Positions 5,811 to 38,772 of a stretch of DNA of 64,000 bases are shown here, piece after piece. The stretch lies in contig JAKSYS010000294.1 in NCBI GenBank assembly GCA_022925895.1, positions 1 through 64,000 on the forward strand. The letters are read 5' to 3'. Every line of letters starts with the position of its first letter. Position 1 is the stretch's first letter. The position numbers and the translations under genes are program-made. The notes below the pieces were generated by a model. The model saw only the letters and a program-made list of their open reading frames with translations, was not told the origin of the DNA and searched no databases. Source of the stretch: Fragilaria crotonensis. Its lineage: Eukaryota > Bacillariophyta > Fragilariophyceae > Fragilariales > Fragilariaceae.

Positions 5811-6224
5811 TACTAAGTACTAAGTACTACCGGTAGTATTGTACTAGTACCTGTTGAACTGTCGTACATGCGGTTTAGTGGTGTATTGGAACTTTACCTG
5901 GTGTATGCATAACCCTTTCAGACGATTGAATTCGACGTCAAGGCAACCATGTAGATGACGTCACATCGTTAAACAATGTCATCGACGCGGATGCTGAGAG
6001 AGCGGACGTGGCATTTACCCGTATTGCCCTTTGACACTTGTGACATGAAGCTTCCGCACAGACATCAGATTATGTCATTTTTGTGAGTGTTCGCATATCA
6101 TTGTGGTTCGGTCCCTTTCTCCTTCTCCTTCACCTTCGCATCTTCGCATAACTAAAAGAACTCATTCCTTCGAACGTACAGAAGTTGCAATTTGTTCACA
6201 GTGAACTCACTTTCTGAAATAGAC
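5811..6224. other. Upstream region of the 6225 gene
   Basis: No gene is seen. Two CRE-like sites (5933-5963) and a pyrimidine-rich tract (about 6115-6145) lie before the start codon. Confidence 0.45.
5933..5963. promoter_or_regulatory. Two CRE-like motifs (CGACGTCA, TGACGTCA)
   Basis: CGACGTCA at 5933-5940 and the full palindrome TGACGTCA at 5956-5963, about 270 bp before the start at 6225. bZIP proteins bind such sites, and TGACGT cores act in CO2/cAMP-responsive promoters of diatoms. A role here is inference from motif and position. Confidence 0.35.
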
Positions 6225-6749
6225 ATGAGCAAATCAATCCCAACCATTGCAAAGGCTTTGCCCGCGAGGCTGAAGCTTCACCAGACTCGCAGCCTTTACG
6301 GCTTGTCGACTTTCCATGAACCACGGGCATCCCGCACGACGTCCTCCTTTAGTGAGCCTTCCAACTTTGTTTACAATGGGTGGCATCATAATCAACATCC
6401 CCAACACTTTCACAGTTCTTCTGTCTCACGAAGTGACTGCATGCAGCTTCCAGATTCACGCGTCATGTCTCCCAAGTCTGAATGTCACCATCAGGTAACC
6501 TGGGATGAAGACTACGACGAATACAACTTGTACATTTCTCCCCATCAAGCCACCATCCGTTGTGAGCAAGTGCAACACAGTTTCGAATCTCTGAGACATA
6601 ACGATTTGTTGGACTTGCAACAGCAGCATCAATACAATGCGCAACACGTTGGGGATTATTCCTGGAAGACGGTGGGGTCAGTTTCCGACATTGTCCCTGT
6701 CGACGACGTAGTTGAGTTTGACGATGGTGTTGGTGTGGCTGACTCTTAA
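6225..6749 (+). CDS. Hypothetical protein, 174 aa
   Basis: Not recognised. The first ATG is at 6225 (MSKSIPTIAKALPARLKLHQ); the frame is open upstream but has no earlier ATG. The protein is hydrophilic, rich in His, Ser and Gln, with a basic N-terminus, a region QQQHQYNAQ near residue 140 and an acidic end (VDDVVEFDDG). No signal peptide, membrane span or known domain is visible. The motif SWKTVGSVSDI (about 147-157) is the most ordered-looking part. It lies just outside the left TIR of the large transposon and has CRE-like sites upstream. It could be a regulatory or disordered protein. Confidence 0.55.
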   Translation: MSKSIPTIAKALPARLKLHQTRSLYGLSTFHEPRASRTTSSFSEPSNFVYNGWHHNQHPQHFHSSSVSRSDCMQLPDSRVMSPKSECHHQVTWDEDYDEYNLYISPHQATIRCEQVQHSFESLRHNDLLDLQQQHQYNAQHVGDYSWKTVGSVSDIVPVDDVVEFDDGVGVADS

Positions 6750-6830
6750 GGAAATGAGATACATGCTCTTCCTCTTCTACATACATACATACATGTGGAT
6801 CATAGACCATTTGATGCATTTCGCATGAGC

Positions 6831-6850
6831 TACATCTAAGAGTGCAGATC
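6831..6850 (+). repeat. Left TIR of the 13.8-kb transposon
   Basis: CATCTAAGAGTGCAGATCCG, preceded by TA. It pairs with 20574-20593 at 18 of 20 positions. Confidence 0.75.
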
Positions 6851-7302
6851 CGATGTCATGATGTTTATAATAACTCATTACTTCGTAATTCCGTACGAAT
6901 GTTCGTATTTTTGGAAAAAATCCTCCGACATGCGTGCATCACGTATGTTTTCCCTACGCTCCTCAGGAACTGAAAATATCCCGCTTTAGCATTTTACGAG
7001 AACAGTAGGCAATTCCCGTTCCCTTTTCAAAAGATCAGGGGTCTAAACCCTTTGTAATTACGAAACTGCAGCAAGTTCGTTTTTACTTTTGCGTTTTACG
7101 CACTGTTTCACCAATCAAAGCATTTGTTTCGTCTCCGAATTATGATCCTCAGTAAGTATACACTGTTTCGTCTGACGTATAGCGTGCTGGTATTATGTTT
7201 AGTGATCAGTACGATGTATGATATGATACGTGTAACATGTAGTACCAAATGTCTTCCTTGTCCTACAGGCATCACCGCCGTCTCTATTTTTATGAATGTA
7301 AC

Positions 7303-10191
7303 ATGTCGAAACGACGCCGGAAGCAACAAGGATGTGCTCCAATTTATTGCGAGAATCCATTTTGTCCTCAGGATGGAAAGGCGTACACCAGCATGTCGGC
7401 ATTTACTCAACATATTGGCAGATCAGCGTCATGCGAACAATATGTTCACGGTCATTTGAATTTACGTTCCATTACTCGCGAAAATGCCACCTCCTCTACT
7501 GTTGTAACAAACACCAAAAAGCCCTCTGTGTTACGCCGCGACATGGTAAACAACATACCGCCTCTTCCTGACGATGAAGAGGATTTGGGATTTGCAGTTA
7601 CCGATGCACACAGTTTGCCATGTGATGACGAAGACGCCATTTTCGACAACGAAAGCAATTGTCTTGACGTGCCTACCTTTGCTTTCCGGCCACCGCAAGA
7701 AGGTGCTGTTTTGTCCAGTAGTGGATTTATGTACACTACTCAACAAAAGTGGACCGTCGCATTGTTGAAATTACTGGACGACATAAATGCTCCTGATTAC
7801 GCATTTCGTTTGATTATTGAATGGGCTTTATCCGCTAAAGATGATGGATACAGTTTTCAACCACCTGGCGGTGTTACACGGAATGCAAATGTTGATATTT
7901 TATTCAAGTCTGTACCTAATGCTCCCCTTCTTCGCCCCTCTATTCAACCCGTGCGGCGTGTTGACGGTTCCTCAAGCAACGTGATTGTTTTTGATTTTGT
8001 TCCTCAACTTCTACGCCTGCTCCAAAACCCCAGTGTCATGAAGCCAGAAAATCTTGCTATCAACTTTAATGCTCCCCTTTTGCGTTATGAAAGTCCTGGC
8101 AATGTTCTTGGTGAAGCATTGTCTGGTAGTGTATACCGTACTGCTTATCAGCGCTTCATCAGCGACCCTTCTCGTCAGCTGTTTGTTCCTATTATTCAAT
8201 GGATTGATCGCACTTCCGTGACAGGAAATGATAGGTTTTCTTTAAAACCTTACATGTTTACGCCCGCAATTTTTACCGAATCATTTCGTCGAACATTCAA
8301 AGCTTGGGGGGTATCATGGATTTCTTCCAAAATCAAAAAAATCCTCAGCGCAAAACCAAACCAAAAAACAAGGTGTCAACATTGGCAACTATCACGCCGA
8401 GCTTCGTGTTGTCTTAAATACATTCCGTTCTGCCAACAATCGTCTTCGAAATATAACTCTTCCTATTGGACCTAATGGAAGCATTACGGTGGATATTGTT
8501 ACGTGCATTTTGTTTGTCATCCAAGACATGCAAGAAGGCGATATGTTGTGTGGTCGATATGGACCACACACCCCTTTAATTAAAAGGCATTGTCGCTCCT
8601 GTGATGTCAGTTACGACGACCTTGACAATCCAGAGGTTAATTGTACCTTTCTGCTTTCTCGCAATATGGATTTTATCGCTCAAAGTGAAGACAAAGAACT
8701 CCGGTCACGTTGGTCTCAGCACAAGTTGGATAATGCATTCAATCACATGCCACTGGCTGATCCTGTACGTGGAATATTCGGCGCAACTCCTGTGGAAACC
8801 ATGCACGCGTATCGTAAGGGTATGATTGAAATGGTAACCTTTCTTGTTTTGGATAATGTTCCGGCAAGCAAAAAGGCATTGCTTGACGATCTTGCATTAA
8901 AGTTTCACAAATCTCACCGTCAAACTTGGCGAGGTGAATACCCTGCTACTGACTTCACAAATGGCATTACAAATCTGACCAAGATTAGTGCTTCAGAGCG
9001 ACTCGGTTTGGTTTTTTTGTTTGTAATCTTGGCGCAATACCATGAAGGGTGGCAAATTTTGGAATCTGCGCTGAAACAACGTACAGATACATCTCTGACT
9101 GATGTAGTGGAATTACTCGAGGCCATGCTATGTTTTGATGCATGGCTCAACCGAGACACGTTTTGGAATTTAGAAGACGCTGAAACTGCCAAAGAATCAG
9201 CACAATTTTCTATCAAAGTACTGATGGAAATGTGCAGCAACTACCTACCCACAACAAAATCCAACCGCTGGAATTTTCCGAAATTCCACGAGTTACTGCA
9301 TATTGTTGATGATATGTCAAGGTTTGGTGCACCCACCAATTATTGTGCACAACGTCCTGAATCTCTTTTGATTGCCGCCGCAAAGCAACCAGGAAGGCGT
9401 GCCCAGAAACGTCATCAGGGAATTGATTACGAGCTCCAAGCTGCACAACGTTTGGCTGCTTCAGGTATTATTGAAACAGTTTATGAGAGAATCTTTGACA
9501 CTCCGTCGCTGTTGTCACACGAAAACATCACCCCACCAAGCACAAATTCAAACACTACGCAAGACAATAAGAAAACTGCGCAAAGCCCAATTTCGAGCAT
9601 TTCACAAAGTACGGACCTAGCTACCACTTGCACGATCCACCTCGAGCCATCGACCACTGAGCCTGGTAATGTTACTTATCGACAGTGCTGGTCAAGTACC
9701 ACTAAAGTTGAGCACTTGACTTTGCCAACCCCTTTGCTGATTTTCTTATGCGAAAAGTTTGGTCCCGAGTTCATATTTGCACACAGTACAAACGTGATGC
9801 ATTCACCTTTCGATGTCATCCTGCTTTCCAATCTGGAAATGCAATCTATGATTGGATGTTAGTCAAATTTGAAACCAAAGCAGATGGCAATCAAGAAGCT
9901 GGTGTTGATTACTTCCCATGCAAACTTGTGGCTGTCGTATTCAATAAGGATGCTGTTGTTCCAAACGATGACGACAAATACCGACTTGTTGTTCAATGCA
10001 CACTCAACCGAACTGGTGTTAAGTCTGTGTTGCTGACGGAATGGTGGTGGTCGCCTGAATATGTGATTATATCACCAGCCGCCATTTTCAATCCGTGTTT
10101 TGTTATCACCATAAAGGAAGACCAATCTATTGTGATGGAGACATTAGCATACGAGAAGTGGCCAGGAGAATTTACAAACACTAAGTATTAG
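7303..10191 (+). CDS. Plavaka/CACTA-like DDE transposase
   Basis: Predicted transposase of the 13.8-kb element, about 960 residues. The start at 7303 (MSKRRRKQQG) puts a C2H2-like finger first (CENPFCPQDGKAYTSMSAF then QHIGRSASC), as in Plavaka proteins. The middle has IIQWIDRTSVTGNDRFSLKP (about 8200), which fits the first catalytic Asp of this fold, then LCGRYGPHTPLIKRHCRSC, a Cys/His block, and PVRGIFGATPVETMHAYRKG. The C-terminal YKRDAFTFRCHPAF and YDWMLVKF resemble the end of Plavaka transposases. The frame changes twice: in the G6 run at 8306-8311, and between about 9750 and 9770. Both ends and all blocks are present. A more distant CACTA group is possible. Confidence 0.62.
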
Positions 10192-10222
10192 GCACTTAAA
10201 CAGAAACCGCAGCTTTTTATGT

Positions 10223-12397
10223 TCACTTAGCCCTCTTGGACGGGAGCGTCATAGCCTGAATTCGATTCTTCTTTCCTCCCACGTATCGGAACATAAATCC
10301 TCTTCGAAAATCAATGAAAGTGCTCTTTTCTGTTTCCGTACAAGTGCAATAGTCCAGAGCTTTTTGACATAATGGAATTGCAACAATTTCGTTAGCATCG
10401 TAAATGAATCCTCCATGAATGGTAACCGCATGATTACTGTTGCCATCAGAAGCAAGAAGCACACCCACGAATACCACAGTCTCGTTCAATTCATTTTTCC
10501 AATCGAAATGTCGTGGCTTCCAGGCTGGCTGTAACCACTTTGGAAGTACCTCCGAGGCGTAGGTCATAACCTTCTTCAATGCATTAACTGTTCCATGGGC
10601 CAACTTTTCTTTTCCATACTCAGCGATCTTCGTAGCTTCATTGACAAATCCCAGCTCGAATAATGCACTAGCAAAGGAATTTGATACGCATAGATCTTCC
10701 CCCTCGTTTTGGACAAAATGCACTTTTGGAGCGCCTGTTACCGTCAAATCAGGATGTTGGTCCAGTGATGACTTCTTCCAATCTCCAACAGGTATGTCAA
10801 CGAATCCTGTTCGAGTCTCTTTAAGTTCGTTCAGAAATTTTGTTGGAAGTACATTATCAAGAAAATCCAAGTCTTTCTTGACTCGTTTTCCGTCGGCGTT
10901 TACCACGCTCCAATGAGGAGGAACAGTTATATCTTTTCGTGGAACTTCTTTCTTTTTCGGTTTTTGTTTCTGTGGGGAGCGTTTGACGGGTAGGTCCTCT
11001 TTCTGTGTCTCTCTCATCTCTATGACTTTGTCATAATCAAGAATGTTTCGAGTCTGTTCTGGAACAAATTTTACTCGCGTGATTTTCTTGTTCTCCAGAA
11101 ACACTTCCATATCAGCTGGAATCGGAAAATACCTCCCATCGGACTCGAGGTTTAGCACATGGTTGATGACATCGTTAGCAAATCCTGCTTCCTTCCTGAA
11201 CCACTCTTCTGTGACTGGGATATGTTTTTCCACGTTATCACCCTCGTCGTCCGTGTACTGCACACGCGCCACGAATTTGTTTTCGGAACGCACATACTTA
11301 ACGCCAGTTACTAACATAGCCTCGTCCAAAAGGTAATCATTTTCGAATTGTCTACGGAAATGTCGTCTTTCTTTCTTCATTGCCTTGAGCAGTTCTGTGT
11401 AGTACAACTTGATGATTTCCTTCTGACTTGTAGATTTCGCTTCTTCCACACTCGAGGTCATGATCTGGCGATACCACTGCAGGTCCATTTGGTGTTGCTC
11501 ATTCGAACTCCAGTTCCATTCAAGGAACCGCTTTTCAACGTACACATCCATTGCATTTGTGTCAATTGGTCTAACTTCATTGCATTTTTCCCACTTTTCG
11601 TAATATGCAACAAGCAATTCCTGAGCAAACGGAGGCGACTCTTGTTCCAATAAGTTTGCTTGACTTTTCGGTTCCATTTCGAGTACTTCTTGAATTCCGA
11701 AAAATGATTAGGATCACCACGTCCGACATCTTTCCAGTTTGCTTCCCACGTATTGAATTCCAGCATATCATCTGTTGGTATTTCTAACCAAGGAAGATCT
11801 TCTCGTTTCAGCTTCGTTTGCTGGAACGATTCATGTGCATTTTGTTGAATGGAATTTGTCAACTCACGTCCACTCAACTTTCTCTTCTTGCTTTTTTTTA
11901 CGATAGCTTTTTTCTTGCTCGTGCACACTGTCTGATTCGGTAGGAAGTTTAGTTAGCTCCATTTGCCCGTCTTCGTGCATGGGATCATCTGCGTCCTTCG
12001 GAAATTGAGATAGCTCCATTTGCCTGTGTTCTTGATCGTGCACACTGGCTGTGTCGGGAGCAAAGTGAGATAGCTCGGCATCTGTTGGAAATTGATATAG
12101 CTCCATTTGCCCGTCTTCCTGCACGGGATCATCGGTGTTTGTCGGAAATTGAGAATGTTCTATTTGATCCACAACAGTTTCACCTTGTTGTGGACCGTTG
12201 TCCTTGGTTTCTGTACTTTCTTTTTCATCCGCAAGCTTCACTTCAAGGTCAATGAGGAAATCCATTTCGGATCCATTTCCAACTTCAGGAACTTCATTTT
12301 TTCTCAATTCCTTTTTGGTCCACATATTCTTTGTTCGACGATTCTTCATCCTCCGAATCCGACGAATCAGTTGATGGGTCCTCATTTGTTTCTTCAC
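10223..12397 (-). CDS. Acidic-repeat region and C-terminal cysteine-protease-like domain
   Basis: Probably the C-terminal part of the leftward gene that starts near 15197, since coding continues across a frame change in the A6 run near 12300. From the N-terminal side there is an acidic region with repeats of the type DDPMHEDGQMELTKLP (about 11940-12170), then a charged helical region, then a domain of about 200 residues. That domain has a Cys in LCVSNSFASALFELG, a His in NHAVTIHGGF and an Asp-Ala-Asn in IYDANEIVAIPL. This Cys...His...Asn order is that of papain-fold proteases, so a second protease is inferred but not proved. Frame changes lie near 11900 and 11690. The reading frame from 11677 to the stop at 10223 is clean (484 residues). 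Confidence 0.55.
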
Positions 12398-15197
12398 TAT
12401 GTGTCCCTAGCAGTTCTAAAAGGGTTGAAGCTGCCCTGTCCTTTTCCCCTTCTTCGTGATGCTGAAAATCATTGTGAGGCCATCTGAGCAAGGCTTTTGT
12501 TTTTTCGTAGCCAGTTTGATTGCTGTGCATCTCTTCAGTGGGACGAACTGAAACCCTTCTTGGTATAGTAATCCAATACAATTCTGCAAGTCGATCAAAA
12601 AGTACAAAGAATTCCTCCCGCAGATTTGCCAGGTAACAATCTTTTCCTGAATTACCGGTCAATTTATTGTTGTGTAATGTTCTTGGAAAATCGATGAAAA
12701 ACTCAGGCTTATCGTCTGCTGCCACACCCTCAATCTCCTCAATAAATATATTGTAACGAGCAAAGGTTTTGCAGTACCTTTCATCATGCTCATTATTTTT
12801 CCCAACAACGTCACGGAGAATTGTGGCAACTGCAGCAAGAACACCGAACGCACAATTGTGTGTATCTATCTGCTTTGGTAACCAGCGCCGCCCAGTAATC
12901 CTCATGGCCGGGAAGTACCGAGTACCCCTCAAATAATGTTTTGAAGACGAATGAAAAACTTCGAGCATTTTCATTGGAACATCTTTAAATGAGGGCAGTT
13001 TGCAATGTTGCGAGAATGAATAGGCGAGATTCAACAGAAACAAAATGCCATGTTTCATTGGCATATCCCCAGATCCGCTTGGTTCATAAGGACAATAACG
13101 CAAAAATGTCGGAACTAAGTTTCGAGATTCAACAGGGGTTTCCGGGCCAAACGTATCAATACGGTTGCCGTCCAGTGATTTTCTGCGCAGAAGGGAAATA
13201 CGATCAATTTCTTGGTGAGTATGCATGGGTTTGACCGAAGTACTTTTTCGACCACAAAATTCATAGTCTTGTAATGCAATTCTTCCTTTTCGTGAAGCTT
13301 CAACGATATTTCAAGCTCTGAACATAGTTTCTGAGTGAGTGCATCGTGTTCCTTAAGTCGTTCCTTCACGTTACAATATTCTTCCCACTTGGGGTGATCC
13401 TCATTTATAGAAAAAGTGAAGTCATTCACATTTCCTTTTGATGTGCGAAGGGTAGCACGTTGTGTCTTCAAAATTGTAATTGCAATCTTGCATTCACATA
13501 ATCCGAGTACGCTTCAGAAGCCAATGACACATTCTTTGTATAACTGCATGGAATGATGGTAACATGATCATTGTATCGTCCATCAGCCATGATGACAGCA
13601 AGCATCATGTCCAATTCACCGAGGCTGATGTAATCAGTTCCATTCTTCTCGCTATGCTGGATGCGCCGAATGGACAACATCTCGCCACCGACACAAAATG
13701 CGTCAGGTGGGCATAAAGGATCCTGGAGGGGGTGTGGTAGCAAGACACGGATGTGACTAAGCCCGGATGTCGCCGCAACAAAATCATTGTACAGTAACCT
13801 CGTGGTTACATCTCTTTGCTGCTGTGCTGTCGGCGGGTAACGGCACCACATGACAGGCAGAGCAGTGGCATCACCATCAATACAAACAGCAGCATCAACA
13901 TCAATAACTGATGTTGAACCTTTCACTGGCGTCAGAATGGCATCAGGGGCATCAACATCAATAACTGATGTAGAACCTTTCACTGTCGTCACAATGGCAT
14001 CAGGGGCATCAACATCAATAACATCAGCAGGTGGAGCTTCAGTTCCTTTTGATGTTGAAACTTCAAATGTTGCTATAGGAGTCTCGACGTCAATGGAATC
14101 TGCATGTTCAGTTTGCACTTTCCTTGCAGCTTCCAGAGCATCACCGTCTTCTGTCGCTGGTGTGTTTGTGTTCCCTTGGAGACGAGACGATACAGGACAT
14201 TGTCGAAGGTGGCACAGGTACGGTAACCATTCTTTTTCCAAGTTAGAGATACCTTGAAAAAAAAATTTTGGGTGGAGAGTGGACCAAGTTGTTGCGCAGT
14301 CCCACTTCGTTGATATCAAGGAAACCAATCGATTTGATAAATGCAAATGAGATGGAATCAATTGCATTTACCTGCATGAAAATGTCAATCGTAATTTCAC
14401 TGTTTTTTTGTTGCTGTTTGCGTTTGCACAGTACGCAGTTCCGTATCCAGCGTTGCTCTCCGATTATCAAAAGCGCACCTTTTGATAATTAACTTCATCA
14501 GGAAAGAACCAATTCCTTTTCGACGCCACGATGAGAATAGGTGTGCGGGGAAGGGTCCCATGTCACGGACACCTAACCATCGAACGAATGCTGTCCCTGG
14601 TTTCTCATCATAACAAACACGGAAAGTCGTTGCTGCCACAACAATTGTATTTTTGTTACGCACAAAAGAATTAGGCAACAGTGATTTTGCCTTTTGCCTG
14701 AAAGCAATCAAAGCAATTGTCTGATCGACTTTCAATCCGTCGGATACGATGACCTGTTGTTCCTCGTTTAGTGAAAATGTCGTACTGTAGAAATTGAATA
14801 ACATGCGATGCGCCCATTCTTGTAAACTCTCGTGCTGCTTTGACGGTGGCAGTTTTTTCTCGCTCGATTGATTAGGTTTGTCCGGTACAGAGCTTGGGTT
14901 TAAAAAAATAACATCGTAGCCCCACCGGAATTGCTTGTTTTCTGGCTGTTTGTGAATAACCTCCAACCAGTTGAGGTCAGTCGTCAATTTTGAAAATACG
15001 GAAAGGCGCATTGCTGTCAATGGGGTTTTGTGGATGTTTGCGTATACATCGTGGCTTTTTTGAGGCGTGGGACTGGTCCCATTTCGCACTTTACATGTAT
15101 GCTCCCTAAATTCGTCAGCCTCCAAATACTGGTACAAATTCTCAAGGTGATCATTTGTACTAAAAATGTCCAAGGGCAATCCTTGATTCGAAATCAT
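12294..15197 (-). CDS. GNAT acetyltransferase and Ulp1/C48-type protease gene of the transposon
   Basis: Leftward gene. The start at 15197 gives MISNQGLPLDIFST. A GNAT-like acetyl-CoA site is seen as SWRRKGIGSFLM (about 14530), followed by VNAIDSISFAFIKSIGF, which fits the last strands of the fold. After a linker with 19-residue repeats comes a Ulp1-like domain: ISLGELDMMLAVIMADG, the catalytic His-Trp in CAENHWTATVL (about 13160) and the Gln/Cys block PKQIDTHNCAFGVLAAV (about 12850). Ulp1 enzymes cleave SUMO-like tags, and such proteases recur in large eukaryotic DNA transposons. Several single-base frame changes (near 14400, 14300, 13470 and 13150) split it. It shares a divergent upstream region with the SANT gene at 16011. 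Confidence 0.6.
13892..14030. repeat. 57-bp tandem repeat, about 2.4 copies
   Basis: Units start at 13892, 13949 and 14006 and share GCATCAACATCAATAAC. On the minus strand each encodes 19 residues of the kind DVDAPDAIVTTVKGSTSVI. The unit length is a multiple of three, so the repeat can grow or shrink without breaking the frame. Confidence 0.85.
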
Positions 15198-16010
15198 AGC
15201 TTTGTGCTGCTTCGTCAGCGTTGATTGAGGAACGGTACCAGCACACAGTTTGTGTGTAGATTCAGCTGAATCTAGTTTCGGTTGCCTATGAACTCCGTGG
15301 AGACAATACGATCTTGGTGATCCACTGGTGAGGCACGACTGGTTCGGAAAGCGCTATTACTGCGCAACCTCTCGCAGGTGACCAGGTGGAAGCACTTCAG
15401 AAAGCGGCAAGGACCCTGTTACCGCTTCACAACTAACGATACGAAGCACACAGCTTGAACGGAAGGCGTGATTGTACTATTGATCTGGGGGATCAAGCGG
15501 AGGCTTCGGAATTGACGAACAAAAGAGATGAACACGCGTTCGTGTGATCGATGAAACGAAGTGTGAAGTGACAAAAACCATTTCGTACTACGGAGCGGTG
15601 TATGCATAGCTCGAATTCATGAAACGTAGAAACCTGGTATATTCGCCAATAAAAAAATCTGAACTGTCGACTTGCTAAACCGGCGTATGTACTGTTGCAG
15701 GACATATGTACATCGTACATCAATGATGTCGTATCGTACCATTATCCTAGAAAACATACGGCGACCTATGTTCACAAATATCACGCTCGGCGGCCGGCGG
15801 CGGCTGCCTTGGATCTCGCAACTAGTACAGAATGGTACTGGACCTACTGGTGATTTACGTCGACTCCATGATCACCCTCACTCGTAAAAAAAAGCTCATT
15901 TCGGTGTGCTATCGAAGTTCAAGTTTTTGAAGATATCACGTGTGCATTCTTCAACAAAGGAGAAGGTATCAAACTGCCTTTGCGGTGATCGTTGTCGTTT
16001 AAATTTGATA
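15198..16010. promoter_or_regulatory. Divergent intergenic region inside the transposon
   Basis: It separates the leftward GNAT/Ulp1 gene from the rightward SANT gene and should hold both promoters. No core motif is certain. Around 15690-15730 there is a run of GTACATCGTACATC-like words. No gene is seen; the frame is open from 15906 but the first likely ATG is at 16011. Confidence 0.4.
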
Positions 16011-17078
16011 ATGCCACCAAAGGAGAAGCTTGCTAGAGGGAGAGGTTCTGCCTTCAACACAGACGAGTTGACTTTTTTATTGACGAATGTCGAAAAGGTA
16101 ATTCCTGCAGGCATAACTGGGTGGGACACCATTGAGAGATTGCACAAGGAGCAGTACCCGGCTAGGAACAGCGAAGCGTTGAAGAGAAAGTTCGAAGCAT
16201 TGCACAAGAGCGATGTTCCAGCAGATGAAAACAATGTGATGTACACACACATCATAAGGGCAAAAGCAGCGCGAAACCTCATTGTTGATGCGTTGAGGGC
16301 GGAGGAGGTCAATGGAAGCATCAAAATAAAAGAAGCTGGAGATGGTACAGAACGGAAGTTGGTAAAAAAGGACGTCTCCTCTGACGTGAATGCCGACAGC
16401 AAGGCGGAGTTTAAAAAACAAAATAAATCACTGGCAGATGACGGGGAAAAAACAGAGGCAAATGAAAATCATTCTTCAAACAATGTCAAGAAAAAGGAGG
16501 GAGCGCGTCCATTCCAAAACGACGAAATTAAATGCCTCTTGCAGCTCGTGGCAGGCGCTTTACCAGTGAGGTTAAACGATTGGGATGCCATTCACAATGC
16601 ATATAGACAGAGCTATGGTTACAGGACGAGGAAGCTCTGAAGAGGAAGTTCACATCTTTGCTACGAACACCCGTTCCAGAAGGCGCAAGTAATCCAAACT
16701 GCGTGGTGGCAAGACAATTAAACGACAAAATCAAAGAAAAAGAATGAAGAACACCATCGAAAAGGCTGCCTCAGAAAAAGCTAGAAAACACAATGCAGTG
16801 GCTGCCAAAACCAACGCAAGTTCCAAACTTTATAAGGGTGCGAGGAAGAAGGATAACAAGAAAGACCAAGACAAGGAAAATGACGGAGATGATGACATGG
16901 TGGACAATGGGAAGGAAAACCAGGAAGAAAACGAAGAAGAAAAGGGGGAAGACGACGAGGACGACGACGAGGATGACAAGGAGCATGACGACGAGGATGA
17001 CAAGGAGCATGACAACGAGGAAGAAGTGGGGGACGACGAGGACGAGGACGAGGACAAGGACGAGGATGACGACGACGA

Positions 17079-17111
<33 letters not shown>

Positions 17112-17653
17112 TGACGACGACGAGGACGAGGATGACGAGGACGAGGATGACAAGGACGAGGATGACGAGGACGAGGATGATGAGGACGAGGTTGACGACG
17201 ACGAGGAAAAGAAGTGGAAAAGGGTTGCGAAGACTTCACAAAAAGTGAGAAGAGCGCAGGACTATGAGGTACGAAGGACGGGACGGAAGTTTGGTTTGGT
17301 TCGCAAGAAGAAGACGTCAGAGGTGCAACAAATGAAAAATGAACATGTATTGTTGTTGAAACAACAGACACACAAGCTGCTTCAACATAAAAGAAAATTG
17401 GAAAAGGAAATCGGCAGCGTAAAGTCAAAAAAAATCAAAGTAGGTAAGGTGATCGGAAAGCAAAAGGAAGATAAGCTTGCTATGGTGCTTGGCGAGTTAG
17501 TAGACATGTAGACATCCACAAATTATTGCTGAAAGAGCGGAAGATTGAGAAACGGGTGAGAAAAATGGAATTGAAAATACAGTCCGAGTGCATGCTGTCG
17601 TTTATGAATTGGATGCAAGCAATGCTAGAGAGAAATGAAACAAAAAGAAAATA
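16011..17653 (+). CDS. Double SANT/DUF6818-like protein with acidic tail
   Basis: Predicted DNA-binding protein of the transposon. Starting at 16011 (MPPKEKLARGRGSAFN), the first module has FNTDELTFLLTNVEKVIP, GWDTIERLHKEQYP and LKRKFEALHKSDVP, the pattern of the MYB/SANT-like DUF6818 family of diatoms and oomycetes. A second copy follows at about 16505-16740 (RPFQNDEIKCLLQLVAGALP). Then come a basic stretch, a 115-residue Asp/Glu region (16870-17210), and basic and coiled-coil segments ending near 17653 with LSFMNWMQAMLERNETKRK. Single-base frame changes lie near 16618, 16735 and 17510. Family members are often carried by mobile elements. A role in TIR binding or in expression of the element is inference. 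Confidence 0.62.
16860..17215. repeat. GAC/GAG low-complexity tract
   Basis: Nearly pure GAC, GAG and GAT triplets, read on the plus strand as Asp/Glu. It also leaves long meaningless open frames on both strands (poly-Ser, Arg-Pro, Thr-Arg), which are not genes. Confidence 0.9.
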
Positions 17654-17785
17654 ATTTAGGGCCGTATAAGGTAGTAACTAGATGTATTTTTTTTACCAAC
17701 GCATCAGCTACATAAATGTTATTTGTTGCTTATAAACGAGACACGAACATGCACAATTTTCTTAGTCATCTTTGGAATGAGAGAT

Positions 17786-18213
17786 TTACTTCGGTGAAAA
17801 AACCCAAGATGTGACATTAGGATCGTATGGAACAGAATAATCGTACGAGACAATGCACTCGCGTTCCTCTGTACCAGGAATAGTCTGCCATGTAAAAATA
17901 GGAGGAGGCCAAAAGGCGTCGCGAACGTCGAAGTTTGCGTATTCCGACAAGTTGTCGTCGAGGCGGTGATTCTCGAGTACGTCGGATCCACATTTGCAGG
18001 CAACGACGCTACGCATGGGTTGCCATGTGTTGTACAATTGGAATTGTTGGATGGAGCAGTCTTGTCATGAGCCTTGTAAGAATTGCAATCGATCTCGTTT
18101 GTTGTAGTTGAATCGATCTCGTTTGTTGTAGTTGATTTGTCAATTGCAGAGATTGTTTGAGATGGTACGGAGCTTTTTGGAGGAATAGAGGAAGATGCCG
18201 GAGGACGGGACAT
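17786..18213 (-). CDS. Unknown Ser/Thr-rich protein of the transposon
   Basis: Not recognised. The start at 18213 gives MSRPPASSSIPPKSSVPSQ, a low-complexity N-terminus with two copies of STTTNEID. Near 18045 the sensible frame changes by one base. The second half, with MRSVVACKCGSDVLENHRLD, AFWPPPIFTWQTIPGTEE and NVTSWVFSPK, has the composition of a folded domain and ends at 17786. There are about 140 residues in all. It lies between the SANT gene (convergent) and the spliced gene at 18536 (divergent). It may be a small accessory protein of the element. No catalytic motif is seen. Confidence 0.4.
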
Positions 18214-18535
18214 GATGATTGGGGTATGGTTGGGTTAGTAAGTGGAATTGTGATTTATTTCGCGCACAACACAAGGGAAAACACAAATGATTCAAATGCA
18301 CAAATGCTGTACTTGTATGCTTTGGTACGATGTACAACGAATGCAAAATATGCTCATGCAGAATTTACCGCCTTGATTTGAAAATTAAATACTGTTAACA
18401 GTCGACGAAAGTAAATAGTACCGCGGGAAGCGGCGGCATTTAAATTTTTGAAATCATAGCACTTTATACAAACCGTAATGTCATATAATTACAAACAACC
18501 TCCAAGTAGAAAGTTTCTCTACTCTGTTTTTTTAC

Positions 18536-20036
18536 ATGCCAAGAACGAGCACAAAATCAGTCACCATGAGCGAAGCAAAAACAAGAAAGACAAAGCGTAT
18601 GCCACCATTAAACTTGCGTACTGATTCTAATGCTATTGTTGAACAAGGTAAAGTTTCAGACAATGCATGTTTTGTGTATGATGTTCAGAATACAACAAAG
18701 CAAATTCATTTGCCAGATGAACAAAAATCAATTGCTGTGGAGCGGGTCGTTCACATTCCAAAAAACAAAGGAGGTAAGCCTTTGTTCACGGACAACAAAA
18801 AAACCTTGAACATGAGTATGACGGCAATTTCCGTGACAAACATGACGAGCATTGTGAAAACATGTGTCAAAACAATTATTTTTCGTAAATGCAAGTTTTA
18901 TTACAGAGATGTGCATGGACGTTACAGTACGAAAGAAAACACAATGTGTGGTCAGATTGTCAAACACTGCAATATCACCGATCCAAACGAGGACTGGTGG
19001 TACCAGATTCGCCCGATTGTTGTCAACACCATTACGGATCATCGCAACAATTGTATTAAAGCTATACAAAAACGATTTAGCGGTACGTTTTCTTGGACAT
19101 AATGCTGATTGGGCTTTTTCAAAAGAAAATACTAAACAAAACTTGAAACAGGACCTTACAATTACCGTGGAGGGCGACCTATGTATGTTTATATGAACGG
19201 GACGCAGATTGATATTGATAAGCTGTTGATGATGCGTAAGAATTGTGGATTTTACTGTGAAATTATTGATATGTACGCACCAGCAATCGTATCCTCCAAA
19301 GAATGGAACAACAAAAGCAAGATGAAGGCGTATTGTGGAACTGACAATCCAAAGGAATTCGGAAAACATATTTTGACTGTTAGTGACGAGGCATTCCTGT
19401 TAATTGTGCTGATCAATTACTCTGCGCACTGGTATAGCGAGATTCAGAAGAAGGCAAAAGTGGTACGTTTGCCAATGTGAACCTTTATACGATGTATTAT
19501 TTCAGGAAACTAATGCCAACGTACAAACACTGGACAGGCACACAACGCATGGACTGCTCAAGATGAACAGGAACATGTGGTGAGTAACTTCAGAAGGTAA
19601 CAAGATAATTTCAAACTTGACTAACGATTGGTATTTCTACAGATCGCAGCAAAATATACATATTCACGAAAGAAGGGGCAGAAGAACAGTTTACGCCCAG
19701 ATAACGGAGGCGGAAGTGGCTGGTCTGAAGAAGGCAAACAGTACTTTGACTTTTTATACCGAGCTGTACAGGCAGACAGAAACCAACAGGCAGGAGTAGG
19801 TGGATCCAGAAAGGACGGCATTTCATTTAACAAAGAACTGTTGAATTTCTTTTTTGGGCAGACAATTTGCTGAAGAAAACACATCGCATTCAGGGATGGA
19901 AAAGCCCGTGAAAAAGAAAAAGGTAACACATCACACGTGCGATGATTTCACAGACTCCGAAGATGAAAACGACAACATCAACGACAATTACTGCAGTGCA
20001 GACCCAAGTCGCATTAACAACATAATTGCAATGTAA
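18536..20036 (+). CDS. Unknown spliced protein of the transposon
   Basis: The start at 18536 gives MPRTSTKSVTMSEAK. Exon 1 runs to 19082. The intron 19083-19151 (GTACGT...CAG) joins cleanly in phase to PYNYRGGRPMYVYMNG. A second intron at 19463-19505 (GTACGT...CAG) also keeps the frame. A third (about 19580-19642) has good splice sites but needs a one-base change to stay in frame. The next exon has YTYSRKKGQKNSLRPDNGGG and GWSEEGKQYFDFLYRAVQAD, a charged helical region seen in other diatom repeat proteins as I remember it. A T6 run near 19850 shifts the frame before an acidic end (DFTDSEDENDN). Further exons up to about 20530 are possible. There is no catalytic motif. Confidence 0.5.
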
Positions 20037-20573
20037 AGCATTTCAGCAACCACAAGGAATACGAGACGAGAGAAGCAGAAACACCGTCATAAAAATAAGA
20101 GAATACTTAAATCAACATTCAGGTAAATGCAAACGACGATATATTTTTAGGAAGACTTCGCAATGCTTATTTACCAGACACGAGCAAAGTAAAAACAAAC
20201 ACTGGCCACTCGTGTTGACTGGGACGCTGCTCGGTTAAACCAGCATCAGTTAAACATACTTCATGTCAGAGGTTACGTAAACACTTACTTGCTTGTGCTA
20301 GTAGGGTCCGAAACAAATACGTCGGAGAAAGAAAAAAAAGAACCGACAAATACGTATTGTACACATGGTAGTAATGAGCCTAAGACCATGTTTTCTGACC
20401 TTGTTTGTTACAGAAACAATGAAAATATTACACGATTTTACTGATGGACATTTTCAGAAATACGAACAAAAAGCTCGTAGGTGGAGAAGATCGCTGAGCT
20501 GTATATCTCGTGAGTACCCGAAAAAACAATCCAAGAACCTGAACTAATTTTTTTCGAATTTACGTCTTGTAGA

Positions 20574-20593
20574 CGGATTTGCACCCTTAGATG
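20574..20593 (-). repeat. Right TIR of the 13.8-kb transposon
   Basis: Reverse complement CATCTAAGGGTGCAAATCCG, followed on the plus strand by TA. It matches the left TIR at 18 of 20 positions. Confidence 0.75.
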
Positions 20594-20759
20594 TACCAAG
20601 CTGACAAGGTTCGAGGGGTGGCGATGCACTGTATAGTTTCTTTCGATAATAGATTTGAGATGCAGGAATAGATAATAAGACCGTATTTAAACGCAAGTAT
20701 GTGACCTTTTAACTTCTCTATCATTTCTTATAACAAACACATACAGGACGTAAACATCA

Positions 20760-22668
20760 TTATCCCAACTCGTACAGCACCATGTACGCCGTTGTTGCAG
20801 CGCCCATAGCGCTGTCCAATCGACTCACGTTATCGTCATTAAATCGTGTCAAGCCCTCTCGCCCATTCCGTACAGACGATTGGCATCGGCTGTATAATGG
20901 CCGCAGGATGCCGATGACCCAATATGGTTGCAAATACTGCGAATTTGGTAGCATGACGCTTGCGTCGCTTGGGCGGGAATTGTGACATCGTCGGTAACAA
21001 ACTCTCCGAGTACAGAGCGAACATCGAGACTGAGTGATGAAGGAAACTCCACGGCAGATTGATTCTTTCGGTACGTGATACTGCTGTAATCTGGACTGAT
21101 ATCGACGATGAATCGCTTGAAATGAAAAAGCAATGCTGGCGGGAGTTTGGTGATTTCCGTTGTTTGGGTGGCTGATTCACAAAAGCACTTCTCGCATTTC
21201 AGCTCGCGTTTTTCTGGAGAAAAGAACTTTCGCAAACCCTCTTCCACACTTGTACCTTCGCTTGAGCCAACATCAATCGATAGGTGGAGGTATTTCTCTA
21301 TCTGTGTACGTGTGTACTTGCATGAGTCACATGTCAGACGTGATCGAACTTCGGTGCAGAAGTAATCACCGATCGGTGACGAATTTGTGACCGCCTGAGG
21401 TCGAGCGGGTGACGATGATTCTGTGGACGCCGAGGATGCATCACCACTATCATCCTGAACTTGAAGAGGAGACGAAACACCCGGTACCACCGCCCTTCCT
21501 CCAATCAGTTTGCATTGAGGGTGTTGCTCTTCCGTTGGTCGATGAGTCCTCGGCTTCAATGATTCACTTGTAATTTCATGCTTTTTCGTCGTCGCCGTAG
21601 AGCAGCATGGAAATTTCATCCACTTTGAGGTCGCAGAAGGAAGGGAGGCGTGATAACCACCCATCATCACCCTCGCCGGAGTTGGAGTCATTATGAATAC
21701 CGCCGGTCTGAGGTCCGGTTGATGATTCTTCGTTCTTTTGCTGACCCTCTTTTGATGGATGCTTTGTATCATCACCATCCGCCACTCTGCTAATGGCGTT
21801 TTCATCCACTGAACTTGTACCATTACTGTCAGTAGTCCCTTGATACACTTCATCCAACAAGTCCAACAACGTCGTTAGAAACTCATGGGCGTCCTGTTGC
21901 CGAAATCCAACGAACAGAGGCGATCGTTCGTCGACAGCCTTTTTTGAAAGCATCAGGACGGACGGTTTCTCCGCTTCGCAATGTTTCCATAAGTGACAAA
22001 AATTCAAGTCGTAATCTCAATTTTGCTTCGTCTTGCGATAGCGGCGACGCCTCTTCCAATGCCGACAAGAAATGATCCAAGCTCGCCAGCATCTGTGTAG
22101 CAGAATTCAAATAGCAGGTGTTCCCCAAGTTGACGAGGCCACCGAGCGCTGTGGGGATGTCGTCCTCCACATCTTCCATGACAATATCGTCTGCCAACGA
22201 AGGAACTGAGGAGTCGTCCGCCAATGATTTGCCATCATTTTCTACAAACACGAAATCTTCATCTTCATCCATACCAAGCTTAGGAATAGTGCTGATGGGG
22301 TCGAGACGAGGTGAAAGGACAGCTGTTGACATTTGAGGCTTGGTGAGAGGCAGCTTCACACTATGGCAAACGCCGTTCGTGGTTTCCTCAAGCGTGGTCT
22401 TTGGTTCACGAGTGGATGAAGAAAAGGAAAAGGGGAAAACTACAACACGTCGTGAATTTTCGCAACGCCAACGAGTCAGGGCAGGGCGACGTACTCCCGT
22501 ATTTTGATTTTGACCAGTCAATCTCATCCACGAATCTTGCGACGAATCTCGTGGACGGTCATCGAACTTCAAATTTTTGCACTCCTGCAACGCAACGTAC
22601 GAGCCTACACGAATGGAAACTGGTACTGTACCGGAACACAGTGACTGGTACTTGGCTTTAAGCTCCAT
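20760..22668 (-). CDS. Ubiquitin-specific protease (USP, peptidase C19)
   Basis: Removes ubiquitin from proteins by a papain-type Cys-His mechanism. The start at 22668 gives MELKAKYQSLC; the true N-terminus is uncertain. The catalytic Cys box is GGLVNLGNTCYLNSATQML (about 22100), followed by GFRQQDAHEFLTTLLDLLDE. Then come a disordered acidic insert, a zinc ribbon (CDSCKYTRTQIEKYLHLS with CEKC near 21200), ALLFHFKRF and the His box SCGHYTADAN (about 20900), ending TRFNDDNVSRLD. Three one-base frame changes are seen: an A6 run near 21945, an A5 run near 21590, and near 20880. All are compatible with missing bases, and all family blocks are kept. USP subfamily cannot be assigned. It is just right of the transposon end. 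Confidence 0.88.
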
Positions 22669-22837
22669 CTACCTTTGTTTCAGTATCGTCCTTCCTAATG
22701 TACTACAATACAACTTAACTGGTCTACAACAGTCTACCGTAGTAGAGTGAGACGAGCAGACGAACAATCCTCTCGAAAAGAAATGCGTTTCCTAGCATTC
22801 ATAAACCTAATTTTCACTCGCACTGGTGCTGGTCCAG

Positions 22838-22909
22838 GCATCACTGGCGCAATGGTAGCGCGTAGCACTCCTAATGCTGAGGTTGTGGGTTCGACTCCCG
22901 CGTGGTGTA
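22838..22909 (+). tRNA. tRNA-Arg (anticodon CCU)
   Basis: A full cloverleaf can be drawn. The 7-bp acceptor is GCATCAC/GTGGTGT (two G-U pairs), the D stem GCGC/GCGC, the anticodon stem TAGCA/TGCTG with loop CTCCTAA (anticodon CCU, reading AGG), and the T stem GTGGG/CCCGC with loop TTCGACT. The discriminator is A. Box A (TGGCGCAATGG) and box B (GGTTCGACTCC) fit RNA polymerase III. No intron; CCA is not encoded. Confidence 0.92.
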
Positions 22910-31740: not shown

Positions 31741-34700
31741 TTATTGGTGTTGTTTTTGCCTTGTATGAGTGTGCTGCACTCGGTTGTTTGGCGCGAGTGC
31801 CGAAACGAAGTTGCCCACTGATTTTGTTTGCATGGCTGCATTTTCAGCTTTGCCCTGCTGGATAAACTGATCTAAAAGGGCAGCAATCTCGATCAGCTTA
31901 TCGGCTCGGTGTTCGTACACACTAGCCAATTCCTTGAGGCGCGGACCAAGAATTTCATGTGAGGTCATGGTCCGTGCAGAAGTGGATTGCCACGCTGAGA
32001 AGGATGCCTTGTTCTGTTCATCGAAGTCAAGAGGAACCACAGATTCAGATACATCATGGTGTTCGTGGAAGTTGATGTCAAATTCATTCTGGTCATCTGC
32101 GTGGTAGGTTTCTTGCGACAATCCAATGGTGGTATCTGTTGCCATGGCAGCCACAGCAGAGTCAACCATTGCTTGACTGTAATTGACCACAACCACATCA
32201 AGATTACGATGAAAATATGCCAATGCCTGAGTTCCATCCATGCAACGGAACTCAGCAGTTGAATTTCTTCCCGCAACAAACTCCACAGCATGCTGGTATG
32301 GATTGAAGCCTCCGGGGATGTATGTTCCATTGGACTGTTGGCATCGAGCTTGCCACAGCTTGTTACGTATTCCTAGTTGGAGAGAATCCATTTCTGACAT
32401 CTCGCCGACAACAACAAACTTGTCGAATGCTCTCCAAAAACGGACAGCAACCTGGTGGTGTGTAAATCCCTCAAAGCTGATTCCATAGTTGATGGCAACA
32501 TGCATGAGGTGACGGTCAGGCACCCCATTGCGCTCTGTATATCCACAGGAGCACCGCAGTTGTCCAGATTTACTAAGGGTAACAATGCGAACTCGGGAAA
32601 ACATTGGCTTTGGGGATACCTCAGAGGAGGAAAGTGTTCGCTGTGCAGAGAAACCAACAAACCATTGTGTTGTAGAGATGCGGACTGATGCATAACTCTC
32701 AGCCAAAGTAAGTTGCTCTTGTATCATTGTCTCTGCCACTGCTTGTATCTGACGACATGTTGCTGTGGCAGTGTACAAGGGGACACCATTGAAGGCTGCG
32801 GAGGAACTACGCTTGCGATGGCTCGCCTTGCACTCATCTTGATTGATCATGCATTTTCCTGCTTTTGCAAGGCCCATGGAAGGCAGCACAGATTCTGAGT
32901 TGTACTTCAGTCCATTGTTTGTACCCTCAAGGCATGTATTGGAGTACTCGTTGAAGGAAAAGGTGACGTGGAAGTGATGAGCGGCAAAGTTGTCCTCATG
33001 TGGAAAGACATTAGTGCGGAGGAACTTTAAGATGATGTTACTTCCGTTAGTGCTTACAACATCCCGGACAGCATTGGATTGTACGTATGCAACCAGAAGG
33101 GCCTTTGAGCTTAATGAATGAAGTAGAGAAAGATGGTAAGGGCATACTTACTAATGCACGAATACACATATCAGCAATCACATACATGCGATACTCAACA
33201 GCTGTTTCGATGTCCTTCATCAGACTGTAGATCCATTGTTTAACCACTGATTCAACATGCTTTGCTTCTCGGGTTCGGCCAAGTCCTGAGACATTTCTCT
33301 CCCATCCTTTTTCAATGATGTGCCAACCACAGCGACGGCGCTTTGAATTCTTGAAAACAGTCTTCAGTGCCTGGTCTAGTTGCGACGTCTCTTGTGAGTC
33401 ACCATCTGTGATCTGCAACTGGACAGACTCACAAGCAGCAGTGCCAAGCAGTGATGGAGTGGCAACTTGAAATAGCCATCGAAACAGCCAAGCTCTCTCA
33501 TTTGGGACAAATGCACGAAGAACGATTTGCATTTTTCCAAAGCAGTCCTTCACAGCCATTGTAATAAGGGGCCTGTTTTCTTTGTTAGTCTTGTGAGTTC
33601 CATCGATGAACATGACCTCTGAATAGGCTCGGAACAACTGTTTCCCATGAGGAAGCACCCAGACGATGGCAAGTAAGACATCTTGGTTGTCGTCAGCATT
33701 CACAGAGACTCGGCTCTCACGGGCATATTGCATCATATCATCTCCTAGAACACCAGAATCATCCCTGACTATCTCACACAGAGTTTCCTCGGCAACAGCA
33801 CTGCCAGTTTCAGTAAAGATCATATCGACCTCAGGTGAAGCACTTTCATTTGTTGTTGGTTTCTTGAGTTTTGGAAGCTCAGACTCACTTGCTTCCTTGC
33901 TGCGATGGTAAAGAGCACAGAAACTAGCTCCTTTTTTCTTTAATATAGAGATCAAGACATCAAGATCGCTCGACAAGGTACTTGCTTCTTCAACCTCAGT
34001 GGCATCAGTCAATGAGGACGCCAACTTGGCAAACCCTTGGTGATATGCTACCTGGCGACGGGTCAAGCGTATGCCAAATTTTGCGTTGACAGCTGCTGCA
34101 GTCTTTCCAGGTTGGATGTTGGCAATCGCCAATTCCTTTTGGTAATCAACCATCTTTTCATCAATAAATTTCGAACGGATGGACATCTCGGCAGCATCAA
34201 TTCTCATGTGATTTGTGTGAGTGCCTTGTCCAACACCGCATCTGAAAAAGTACGTTTCACAATCATACTCGAGAATGAGATGGACCTTGCAGGTCTTGTC
34301 AGCAAACAAGGGGCGGTTGGTTACTGTTCGTCGTTTCATTGATTTTCCAAATTTCCCGCGAGTATTTGTCCTGTCGCAGTGATATGTAGTGGACCGCACA
34401 GGGCCAACTGGCTGAGGTGTGCCTGCCTTCACTGCCTTTCTTGCAATGCTCAAACTGTCATACTGGCGGTGCTTTGGGCAATAAATGCACTTCTTCCTCC
34501 CGCCCTTTCTCGTACCTCCATTGCACTTTAGGTCACAGCCTCCTGACTTCTGAGAAGCTATGCAAAGTGCAGTTATAAGCTTCTGACCGCCACTTCTTTT
34601 GTCCCATCCTCCATCGATGGGGTAGGTCCCGGGGTCAAATCGAATAATGATGTTTTTGAGCAACACATTTCTTACATCTTCAAACAAATCAACATTGTCT

Positions 34701-34906
34701 TTATAGCAGCTGTGCCCGGCTGGTGGTACATCGTTGTCGCTTGGAAAGCACCGAAAACCATGAAATGGCAGCAATGCGGACCACTCACGTTGACAGTAGG
34801 TATCAATTTCATTGTCAATTGATTCAAATAGTGATAGCTGTGGTGCCAACGTCATTGCCGGCGAAGTCATGGTAGCAGCCCAGTTCGAACAGATACCACA
34901 GTACAA
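31741..34906 (-). CDS. Mutator-like (MULE) transposase, one intron
   Basis: Exon 1 runs 34906-33152, a 49-base intron 33151-33103 (GTAAGT...AAG), and exon 2 33102-31741. Splicing keeps the frame (IRAL|ALLVAYVQ) and gives 1,038 residues. The N-terminal half has Cys-rich zinc-binding parts (GGCDLKCNGG, CIYCPKHRQY) and a DNA-binding-like helical region (RLTRRQVAYHQGFAKLA). The catalytic core shows EVMFIDGTHKTNKENRPLI (first Asp) and LQITDGDSQETSQLD (second Asp), then RRCGWHIIEKGW and EYSNTCLEGTNNGLKYNSES. A SWIM-like finger follows (LRCSCGYTERNGVPDRHLMH), in which the third metal ligand is Asp rather than Cys. The C-terminus has NKASFSAWQSTSARTM. With matching TIRs outside, this is the likeliest mover of the element. 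Confidence 0.82.
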
Positions 34907-35300
34907 ACGCTGTTGGAAGATGATAAAAATGAATCCTGAGGATGATACGCCAGAGTACAGTACTCAATATCTCGGCACACCGACTTATATCTTGGCGCGC
35001 AAGTATTTCATCTTTTGAAATGCCACAATATCCTGGCGCGCAGACATGGTATCATGTATAGCTGGTTTTGTGTAGTGAAATCCTGGCGCAGCACCCAGTA
35101 CAGAATGTACGTATAGCCAATAGGAAATGAGGCTGAGACATTGCTTCGGAATATTGTCTCGTGTTGGAAGCCAGCGTTCCACAATGAGATTGAGCACCGC
35201 CGTTTGAAACATATTCATTCCTATCTATCGACTTACCCCCTGCAGTTGCCCTCCAAACTCTCTCAAGAACTGTGTTGCCGGGGTTAAGTCGATAGATAGG
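34907..35300. promoter_or_regulatory. Shared upstream region of the two transposase genes
   Basis: It separates two head-to-head genes and ends in the palindrome at 35219-35299. It may drive both genes. No TATA box is certain. Confidence 0.4.
35219..35299. repeat. Palindromic pair CCTATCTATCGACTTA
   Basis: CCTATCTATCGACTTA near 35219 and its inverse TAAGTCGATAGATAGG near 35284-35299 are separated by about 50 bases, followed at once by the ATG at 35301. It could be a binding site for a regulator, a short hairpin, or the relic of a small element. Confidence 0.7.
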
Positions 35301-38745: not shown

Positions 38746-38772
38746 AAATTAAATTAAAGGCATTCACGCAGG

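Follow-up and report, generated by a model that had tools for sequence, protein, structure and literature searches.

The stretch of DNA analyzed here, positions 1 to 64,000 of contig JAKSYS010000294.1 (hereafter the window), harbors between positions 6831 and 20595 what we regard with high confidence as a recently active DNA transposon of the Plavaka type, belonging to the CMC/CMCT clade and endowed with a DDE transposase. The element spans ~13.8 kb with its duplications, ends in 20-bp terminal inverted repeats (TIRs; CATCTAAG...CTTAGATG) set within a 2-bp target-site duplication, and contains about five genes: a transposase, a multidomain protein, a DUF6818/SANT-like protein, a short open reading frame (ORF) and an intron-containing gene, here called gene F. 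Its mobility as a unit, its ends, its target duplication, its transposase family and the conservation of its accessory gene cassette are all apparent in the host assembly that contains the window (62.1 Mb, 881 contigs), in which the DNA searches for copies were conducted. It reveals an abundant, recently active Plavaka clade whose accessory enzymes form a fixed set. The host is a eukaryote, probably not a fungus and probably a diatom.

The boundaries of the element are defined by four features:

6831..6832, no strand: left 2-bp target-site duplication TA (a single TA at the empty sites C216 and C252)
6833..6852, + strand: left TIR, CATCTAAGAGTGCAGATCCG (repeat search; same TIR in six other copies)
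20574..20593, - strand: right TIR, CGGATTTGCACCCTTAGATG (repeat search; same end in copies C572, C839 and C408)
20594..20595, no strand: right 2-bp target-site duplication TA (comparison of the flanks with the empty sites)

The two TIRs are complementary at 18 of 20 bases, with TA outside each. A search with the left end retrieved six further loci (C264, C733, C408, C839, C570 and C572) at 98-100% identity, all starting with the same TIR, and the right end was found in C572, C839, C408 and C733 at 96-98% and in C7 at 81%. The right TIR varies by one inserted base in C733, where the contig stops directly after the TA, and by one change in C7. A chance match of the repeats can be discarded, since the same left TIR occurs at six other loci and the same right TIR at four others, with unrelated flanks, and since sites lacking the element are also present. 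At two such loci, C216 and C252, the sequence reads ...GCATGAGC-TA-CCAAGC... (...CATGAGC-TA-CCAAGC...), with the element absent and one TA remaining. The flanks of the window copy can be aligned with C216 over 5811-6833 (97.6%) and 20594-22834 (96.4%), and with C252 over 6150-6833 (95.3%) and 20594-21255 (97.6%); both are thus paralogous or allelic loci in their pre-insertion state. Both 2-bp flanks can be read in five copies, and in all five they match: TA/TA in the window, C408, C572 and C733 (the readings in C408 and C733 being at contig edges) and TC/TC in C839. Flanks readable on one side are TA in C570, TC in C264 (left side) and GA in C7. A strict TA target is ruled out by the TC flanks of C839 and C264, and TA is hence preferred, not required.

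These copies make up family 1, with seven members, that of the window among them, plus one older partial copy, C7, which retains only the right part of the element at 88-91% identity. The whole element (13.7 kb) is present in C733, C839 and C408, and also in C572, where insertions split it, whereas C264 and C570 are partial. Among the insertions nested in C572 and C264, two have ~17-bp repeated flanks and a run of A or T, in the manner of long interspersed nuclear elements, and two contain, close to either end, an internal repeat of 151-157 bp, in the manner of long terminal repeat elements. With nested insertions removed beforehand, substitutions amount to 0.17-0.46% in the 15 pairs formed by six copies, a range that does not include C570, the far end of which is unrelated, misaligned sequence (8-11%). 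Such near-identity indicates that the element has moved recently. Insertions and deletions (indels), mostly of 1-2 bp, number 51-81 events per pair and exceed substitutions in all 15 pairs, most narrowly between C408 and the window (59 versus 58). We infer that this surplus of tiny indels reflects assembly error in a long-read genome, and because of this excess, broken frames in the window copy are a poor guide to whether it is functional.

Indel-rich copies, and copies such as C733 and C408 that end at contig edges, would also be compatible with an assembly artefact or with a host gene cluster taken for an element, but this explanation has next to no probability given that the empty sites are exact, that the 2-bp flanks match while the surrounding sequence differs from copy to copy, and that a second family, described below, has paired ends of its own. 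An earlier note on this DNA, made from the sequence alone, had proposed that 20-bp inverted repeats with TA outside enclose a single mobile unit. The repeats are indeed real, as attested by identical ends at other loci and by the empty sites, and the case for a mobile unit is strengthened by copies with the same ends and contents at different sites and by the paired ends of the second family. Of the span given there (6831-20593), the left end and the TIRs stand, and the right TA (20594-20595) has to be added. The search of the assembly that the note had suggested, for the same ends and gene order at different sites, returned several copies; within the host genome, the genes do occur together elsewhere and were not found in place without the TIRs.

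The genes enclosed by these ends are the following:

7303..10191, + strand: transposase gene, Plavaka type (frames 7243-8475, 8246-9862 and 9712-10191, the reading frame shifting once at a G run)
10223..15200, - strand: probably one long multidomain gene, in the order GNAT-like, Ulp1-like and second cysteine-peptidase-like (start codon not fixed; continuity judged from the C872 relative)
14397..15197, - strand: GNAT-like acetyltransferase domain (motif SWRRxGxG; PF00583 below cut-off)
12294..13513, - strand: Ulp1/C48-like peptidase domain (the C408 copy, when aligned with C872, shares its His-Trp, Gln and Cys)
10223..11707, - strand: putative second cysteine-peptidase-like domain (identified solely by the motifs ...DLCVSNS... 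and ...NHAVTIHGGFIYDAN...)
16011..17654, + strand: DUF6818/SANT-like protein with a long acidic tail (PF20681 at 21.3 bits, below the cut-off of 27)
17719..18213, - strand: short ORF (open in the window and in a column-majority reading of the copies)
18536..~20033, + strand: gene F (putative GT-AG introns, e.g. 19083-19151, with intron ends checked in the sequence)

The Plavaka/CACTA-like transposase recognized in the earlier note is borne out by profile comparison. No single ORF of the window exceeds the cut-off for PF18759 in a Pfam profile scan; an 852-aa read-through, joining two frames at the G run, scores 41.1 bits against a cut-off of 26.3, and the C839 and C570 copies pass it on single frames (26.7 bits). 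In C572, positions 8857-10188 of the gene are open as one frame. A reading of its motifs places the predicted catalytic residues and accompanying pairs in the order D302, D408 or D413, C430-x2-C433, H662-x3-H666 and E686, and the assignment to the Plavaka type is supported by the PF18759 score and by this D-D-C2C-H3H-E arrangement. Across the host genome, PF18759 yields 91 matches with E values of 0.01 or less, of which 76 exceed the cut-off, as opposed to none in 14 control genomes. The one relative of the transposase retrieved by the IMG/VR scans lies on a single contig (IMGVR_UViG_3300049043_000356; PF18759 at 43.8 bits), where it breaks off mid-domain. That contig combines DDE_Tnp_1_7, which we take to be piggyBac-like, and a Plavaka transposase with phage-like ORFs from ~7.4 kb (identified by eye), and looks like a chimera of eukaryotic transposon and phage DNA.

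The earlier note had distinguished an acetyltransferase, an Ulp1-type protease and a second cysteine-protease-like domain as separate accessory genes, among five or six in total. The domain readings are retained here in the weaker sense of likeness, and the three genes are best read as one, which brings the count to about five. In the relative at C872, the GNAT-like and Ulp1-like domains share a single ORF (1123 aa or more), the end of which includes the start of the third part, as it matches the beginning of the window ORF for the second peptidase (BLASTP E 1e-5). GNAT and Ulp1-like matches also report equal open-frame lengths at eight loci (C872, C874, C449, C2, C454, C686, C347 and C106), with shared frames of 907-1414 aa in seven of them and 819 in the eighth; frame continuity was read directly in C872 only, where the join reaches the start of the second peptidase. 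The three parts are hence probably one gene. The GNAT-like domain carries SWRRxGxG in both the window copy and C872, and the signature motif of GNAT enzymes is of the RxxGxG/A type. In the window copy it scores 16.1 bits for PF00583 (cut-off 20.7), and in C872 it reaches 24.2 bits for PF13673 (cut-off 23.6) when the domain is cut out, the whole ORF falling below at 21.2. In a two-sequence alignment of the Ulp1-like domain (C408 versus C872), His-Trp, Gln and Cys are invariant, and the acid position alternates between D and E. The second peptidase may be so assigned from its motifs, read against those of papain-like enzymes. Sequence searches of the element proteins against the PDB gave nothing usable: NAA50 acetyltransferases matched over the GNAT part at E ~0.37, and these, like a farnesyltransferase and other matches at E >0.09, were taken as chance. 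PHROGs returned only weak matches, the best being an acetyltransferase family (E 0.011), and the IMG/VR scans contained no relative of the second peptidase, the GNAT domain, the multidomain ORF or gene F.

The conservation of this cassette can be assessed in the at least 101 transposase matches found among the best 80 of 400 candidates scored, for which reason all cassette and transposase counts are lower bounds. The neighbor table comprises 66 loci; 35 rows stand outside it, 18 belonging to family 1 and 17 being second fragments of listed loci. The neighbor lists, drawn with a distance limit of 15 kb, exclude family 1 and, for the most part, second fragments. At 48 of these 66 distant transposases, the second peptidase is encoded downstream in opposite orientation (at a distance of 9.7 kb in one case and of no more than 3.4 kb in the others), as are the Ulp1-like part at 45 and the GNAT-like part at 26. 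Gene F follows the transposase on the same strand at 28 loci (once at a distance of 14 kb) and precedes it, on the other strand, at 20. Within 15 kb and on any strand, four markers are present at 22 loci, three at 22, two at four, one at 11 and none at seven, a count in which the second transposases on C106 and C518 take in a neighbor's genes. The inverted, upstream position of gene F (e.g. C156, C647 and C361) implies that the order has changed at least once. A third group of transposases, 36-41% identical to that of the window (C137, C170, C650, C43, C471, C261, C230 and others), was not associated with the multidomain protein in our searches, and several of its members have gene F ~5.5 kb downstream. 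The start of the profile match separates the PF18759 matches into two kinds, of 48 and 43 (the latter with start 37-46). When the second peptidase was sought on the opposite strand within 4.5 kb downstream, it appeared at 31 of the 48 and at none of the 43; one of the latter, C253, shows a match to it ~4.1 kb away on the same strand. The 91 Plavaka matches (76 above cut-off) and the ~45 multidomain genes of this genome should, for annotation purposes, be regarded as likely transposon genes.

A second family places the cassette within ends of its own. The element at C131 is bounded by CATCTAAGGGCCAAAAATCG and CATCTAAAAAGCAAAACCTG, which are alike at 13 of 20 positions and have TA on both sides. 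In DNA searches, each of these ends was retrieved at 12 loci; the left end gave an additional match of 40 bp, and the right end two weak internal ones. Ten loci have both ends on opposite strands, spanning 5.3-12.5 kb, and the six longest (C131, C147, C106, C620, C474 and C200; 11.7-12.5 kb) contain the transposase, the second peptidase, the Ulp1-like and GNAT-like parts and gene F, while at least one marker is missing, among the matches listed, from the four shorter ones (C339, C710, C527 and C874). Since the ends of both families enclose the core genes, the cassette lies inside the element in two families. Right ends 73-76% identical to that of the window occur at five other loci (C267, C446, C95, C181 and C214), the first four with termini CATCTAAGGGTGCT..., and the sequence nearby shows short stretches similar to the upstream portion of the GNAT frame; they constitute another family, perhaps a shortened one.

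The remaining genes have different distributions. The SANT-like gene, 16240-17651 of which is open as one frame in C733, was found only in family-1 copies, save for 33-40% matches elsewhere in the genome; being so confined, it is not part of the shared set, and the double SANT protein of the earlier note can be ruled out as a member of the core cassette. Matches to its acidic part ~2.4 kb from weak Plavaka matches (C295, C108 and C279) may reflect low-complexity similarity only. The short ORF has no Pfam match in the profile scan. Gene F is widespread in the clade, with at least 103 matches in the genome.

Transposons often take up host fragments, and it could be argued that this is a plain Plavaka transposon in which neighboring host genes were captured by chance (Pack-type), the extra genes being passengers devoid of a role in mobility. 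The confinement of the SANT-like gene to family 1 fits this idea, as does the lack of demonstrable selection in the ratios of nonsynonymous to synonymous substitution rates (dN/dS) obtained on the C7 copy. Chance capture is nonetheless highly unlikely for the cassette, because the multidomain protein keeps its position and orientation next to transposases only ~43-70% identical to that of the window, and does so within independent paired ends, and because long open frames have been kept at the eight loci noted above.

A composite or virus-derived origin (Polinton-, Teratorn- or giant-virus-like), with the Plavaka transposase as a late addition, should be considered as well. Polintons contain cysteine peptidases of the Ulp1/adenain kind, and gene F has weak matches in PHROGs to phage head-tail and tail families (E 0.06-0.07). 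The second peptidase also has a sub-threshold match to a caulimovirus coat domain (14.4 bits, cut-off 27), and Plavaka-flanked 'giant repeats' are described beside endogenous giant viruses in Amoebidium (PMC11244446). Against this stand the ORFs scanned, none of which scored above cut-off for a capsid, a DNA polymerase, a packaging protein or a recombinase, the single transposase-cassette layout across the clade (gene F excepted) and ends that are 20-bp TIRs, leaving very little probability for a viral ancestry.

Some observations weigh against a recently active Plavaka transposon with a conserved, functional cassette. Its mobility is read from copies and empty sites, no transposition having been observed. 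The GNAT-like domain was detected in its expected place at only 26 of 66 loci, and 16 of 66 relatives have no cassette part or gene F alone, 14 of these being transposases 36-41% identical to that of the window. The Ulp1-like domain of C872 scores 16.7 bits for PF02902 (cut-off 20.7) and that of C408 is unmatched; sequence searches with the Ulp1-like profile gave no PDB match, and those with the second peptidase gave neither a Pfam nor a PDB match above chance level. Between the window and C7, dN/dS is weak for gene F exon 1 (0.56, 182 codons) and the short ORF (0.74, 60 codons); the next exon of gene F gives 0.26 (104 codons), shifted frames of exon 1 used as controls give 0.77 and 1.34, and the stretches compared are too short to decide on selection. 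Lastly, no 7-mer in the 450-bp ends exceeds its shuffled expectation, as subterminal repeats would, and tandem arrays occur only inside reading frames (13892-14022, 16910-17207 and 18087-18135).

As judged from its family, the transposase of this Plavaka element would operate by cut-and-paste, binding the CATCTAAG ends and joining the element into a 2-bp, mostly TA, target that is duplicated in the process. The cassette consists of the multidomain protein, read towards the transposase, and gene F. It is a reasonable possibility, if one we put at somewhat less than even, that the multidomain protein acts on host silencing or transposition complexes, stripping SUMO/ubiquitin-like tags and acetylating a protein of chromatin or of the transposon. 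That gene F and the SANT-like protein bind the DNA of the element or assist the transposase is conceivable but rather unlikely. More tentatively than for the multidomain protein itself, we suggest that this entire clade of Plavaka transposons might have evolved a dedicated protein uniting three enzymes, namely an acetyltransferase, a deSUMOylase-like peptidase and a second peptidase, to disarm silencing by the host or to tune the transposase, with gene F as a partner whose place flipped between two sub-lineages. Such a cassette would be the equivalent, in protists, of the TET/JBP enzymes of fungal Plavaka and the VANC/KIU proteins of plant VANDALs.

Elsewhere in the window, the host gene at the right border (20760-22668) encodes a ubiquitin carboxyl-terminal hydrolase, in a region 95-98% similar in C216 and C252, and is followed by one transfer RNA gene (22838-22909). 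A Mutator-like (MULE) transposase with neighboring long ORFs occupies 31741-38504, a region that may be another multi-gene element, and a Copia-like element (zinc knuckle, RVT_2) comes directly after it (38753-43880).

Comparison with known systems, drawn from the cited parts of each source, places the element among Plavaka transposons. In Plavaka and the wider CMCT clade the catalytic residues are D, D and E, the second D being separated from the E by a C(2)C and an H(3-4)H pair, and the PlavakaB elements of fungi have CATCA..TGATG termini and a target duplication of 2 or 3 bp (PMC12730594). The element resembles PlavakaB in its D-D-C(2)C-H(3)H-E transposase, its termini starting with CATC and its 2-bp duplication; its CATCT..AGATG ends agree at four of five bases, the fifth being T instead of A. 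Some fungal PlavakaB carry an accessory TET/JBP dioxygenase gene, thought to counter silencing in fungal transposons (PMC12730594), whereas the accessory content here is the GNAT/Ulp1-like/second-peptidase protein and gene F, and no TET/JBP match was found in the element ORFs scanned against Pfam. EnSpm/CACTA elements have CAC..GTG termini and a 3-bp duplication, and ESTA elements a TA target duplication (PMC12730594); the former are ruled out by the CATC..GATG ends and 2-bp duplication, and the latter by the TC/TC duplication in C839. Hence the element is a Plavaka by transposase score, motifs and duplication, and is set apart, as far as its predicted proteins go, by its cassette.

Accessory proteins of comparable make-up travel with other transposases. 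In the VANDAL/KIU elements of plants, Ulp1-bearing relatives of VANC (KIU) are tied to loss of silencing (PMC13317346; VANC also in PMC10398659), and there too an Ulp1-domain protein accompanies the transposase, but these Mutator-like elements belong to another transposase superfamily and are non-TIR (PMC13317346, PMC10398659). VANC proteins target tandem repeats in the non-coding regions of their element, of which there are none here; the lack of subterminal repeats and the restriction of tandem arrays to reading frames weigh against a VANC-like mode of action. Unrelated transposons, namely Ginger1, Mutator and Crypton elements, repeatedly carry deSUMOylase- or deubiquitinase-like domains of the Ulp1 or OTU kind (PMC2836005, PMC3212892); as described in the cited parts of these reports, Ginger1 has one domain, Ulp1 or OTU, and never both, whereas an Ulp1-like, a second cysteine-peptidase-like and a GNAT-like domain come together here. 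The 'giant repeats' of Amoebidium are likewise large, gene-rich and Plavaka-associated outside fungi, but form tandem clusters of up to 50 kb with many tyrosine recombinase genes, and the cited part of the report mentions no GNAT/Ulp1 cassette (PMC11244446).

The suggestion in the earlier note of an undescribed system is therefore to be narrowed: Plavaka transposons and Ulp1/OTU domains in transposons are already known, and what is new, as far as our searches reach, is the fixed cassette and its spread over the whole clade. No report of a diatom Plavaka or of such a cassette was found in the open-access literature, as judged by titles and abstracts. Should the cassette counter silencing, TET/JBP and VANC would be joined by one more, independently evolved means by which transposons escape silencing. 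Its likely targets would be SUMO-like and acetyl marks, and the system could be put to the test in a cultured microalga.

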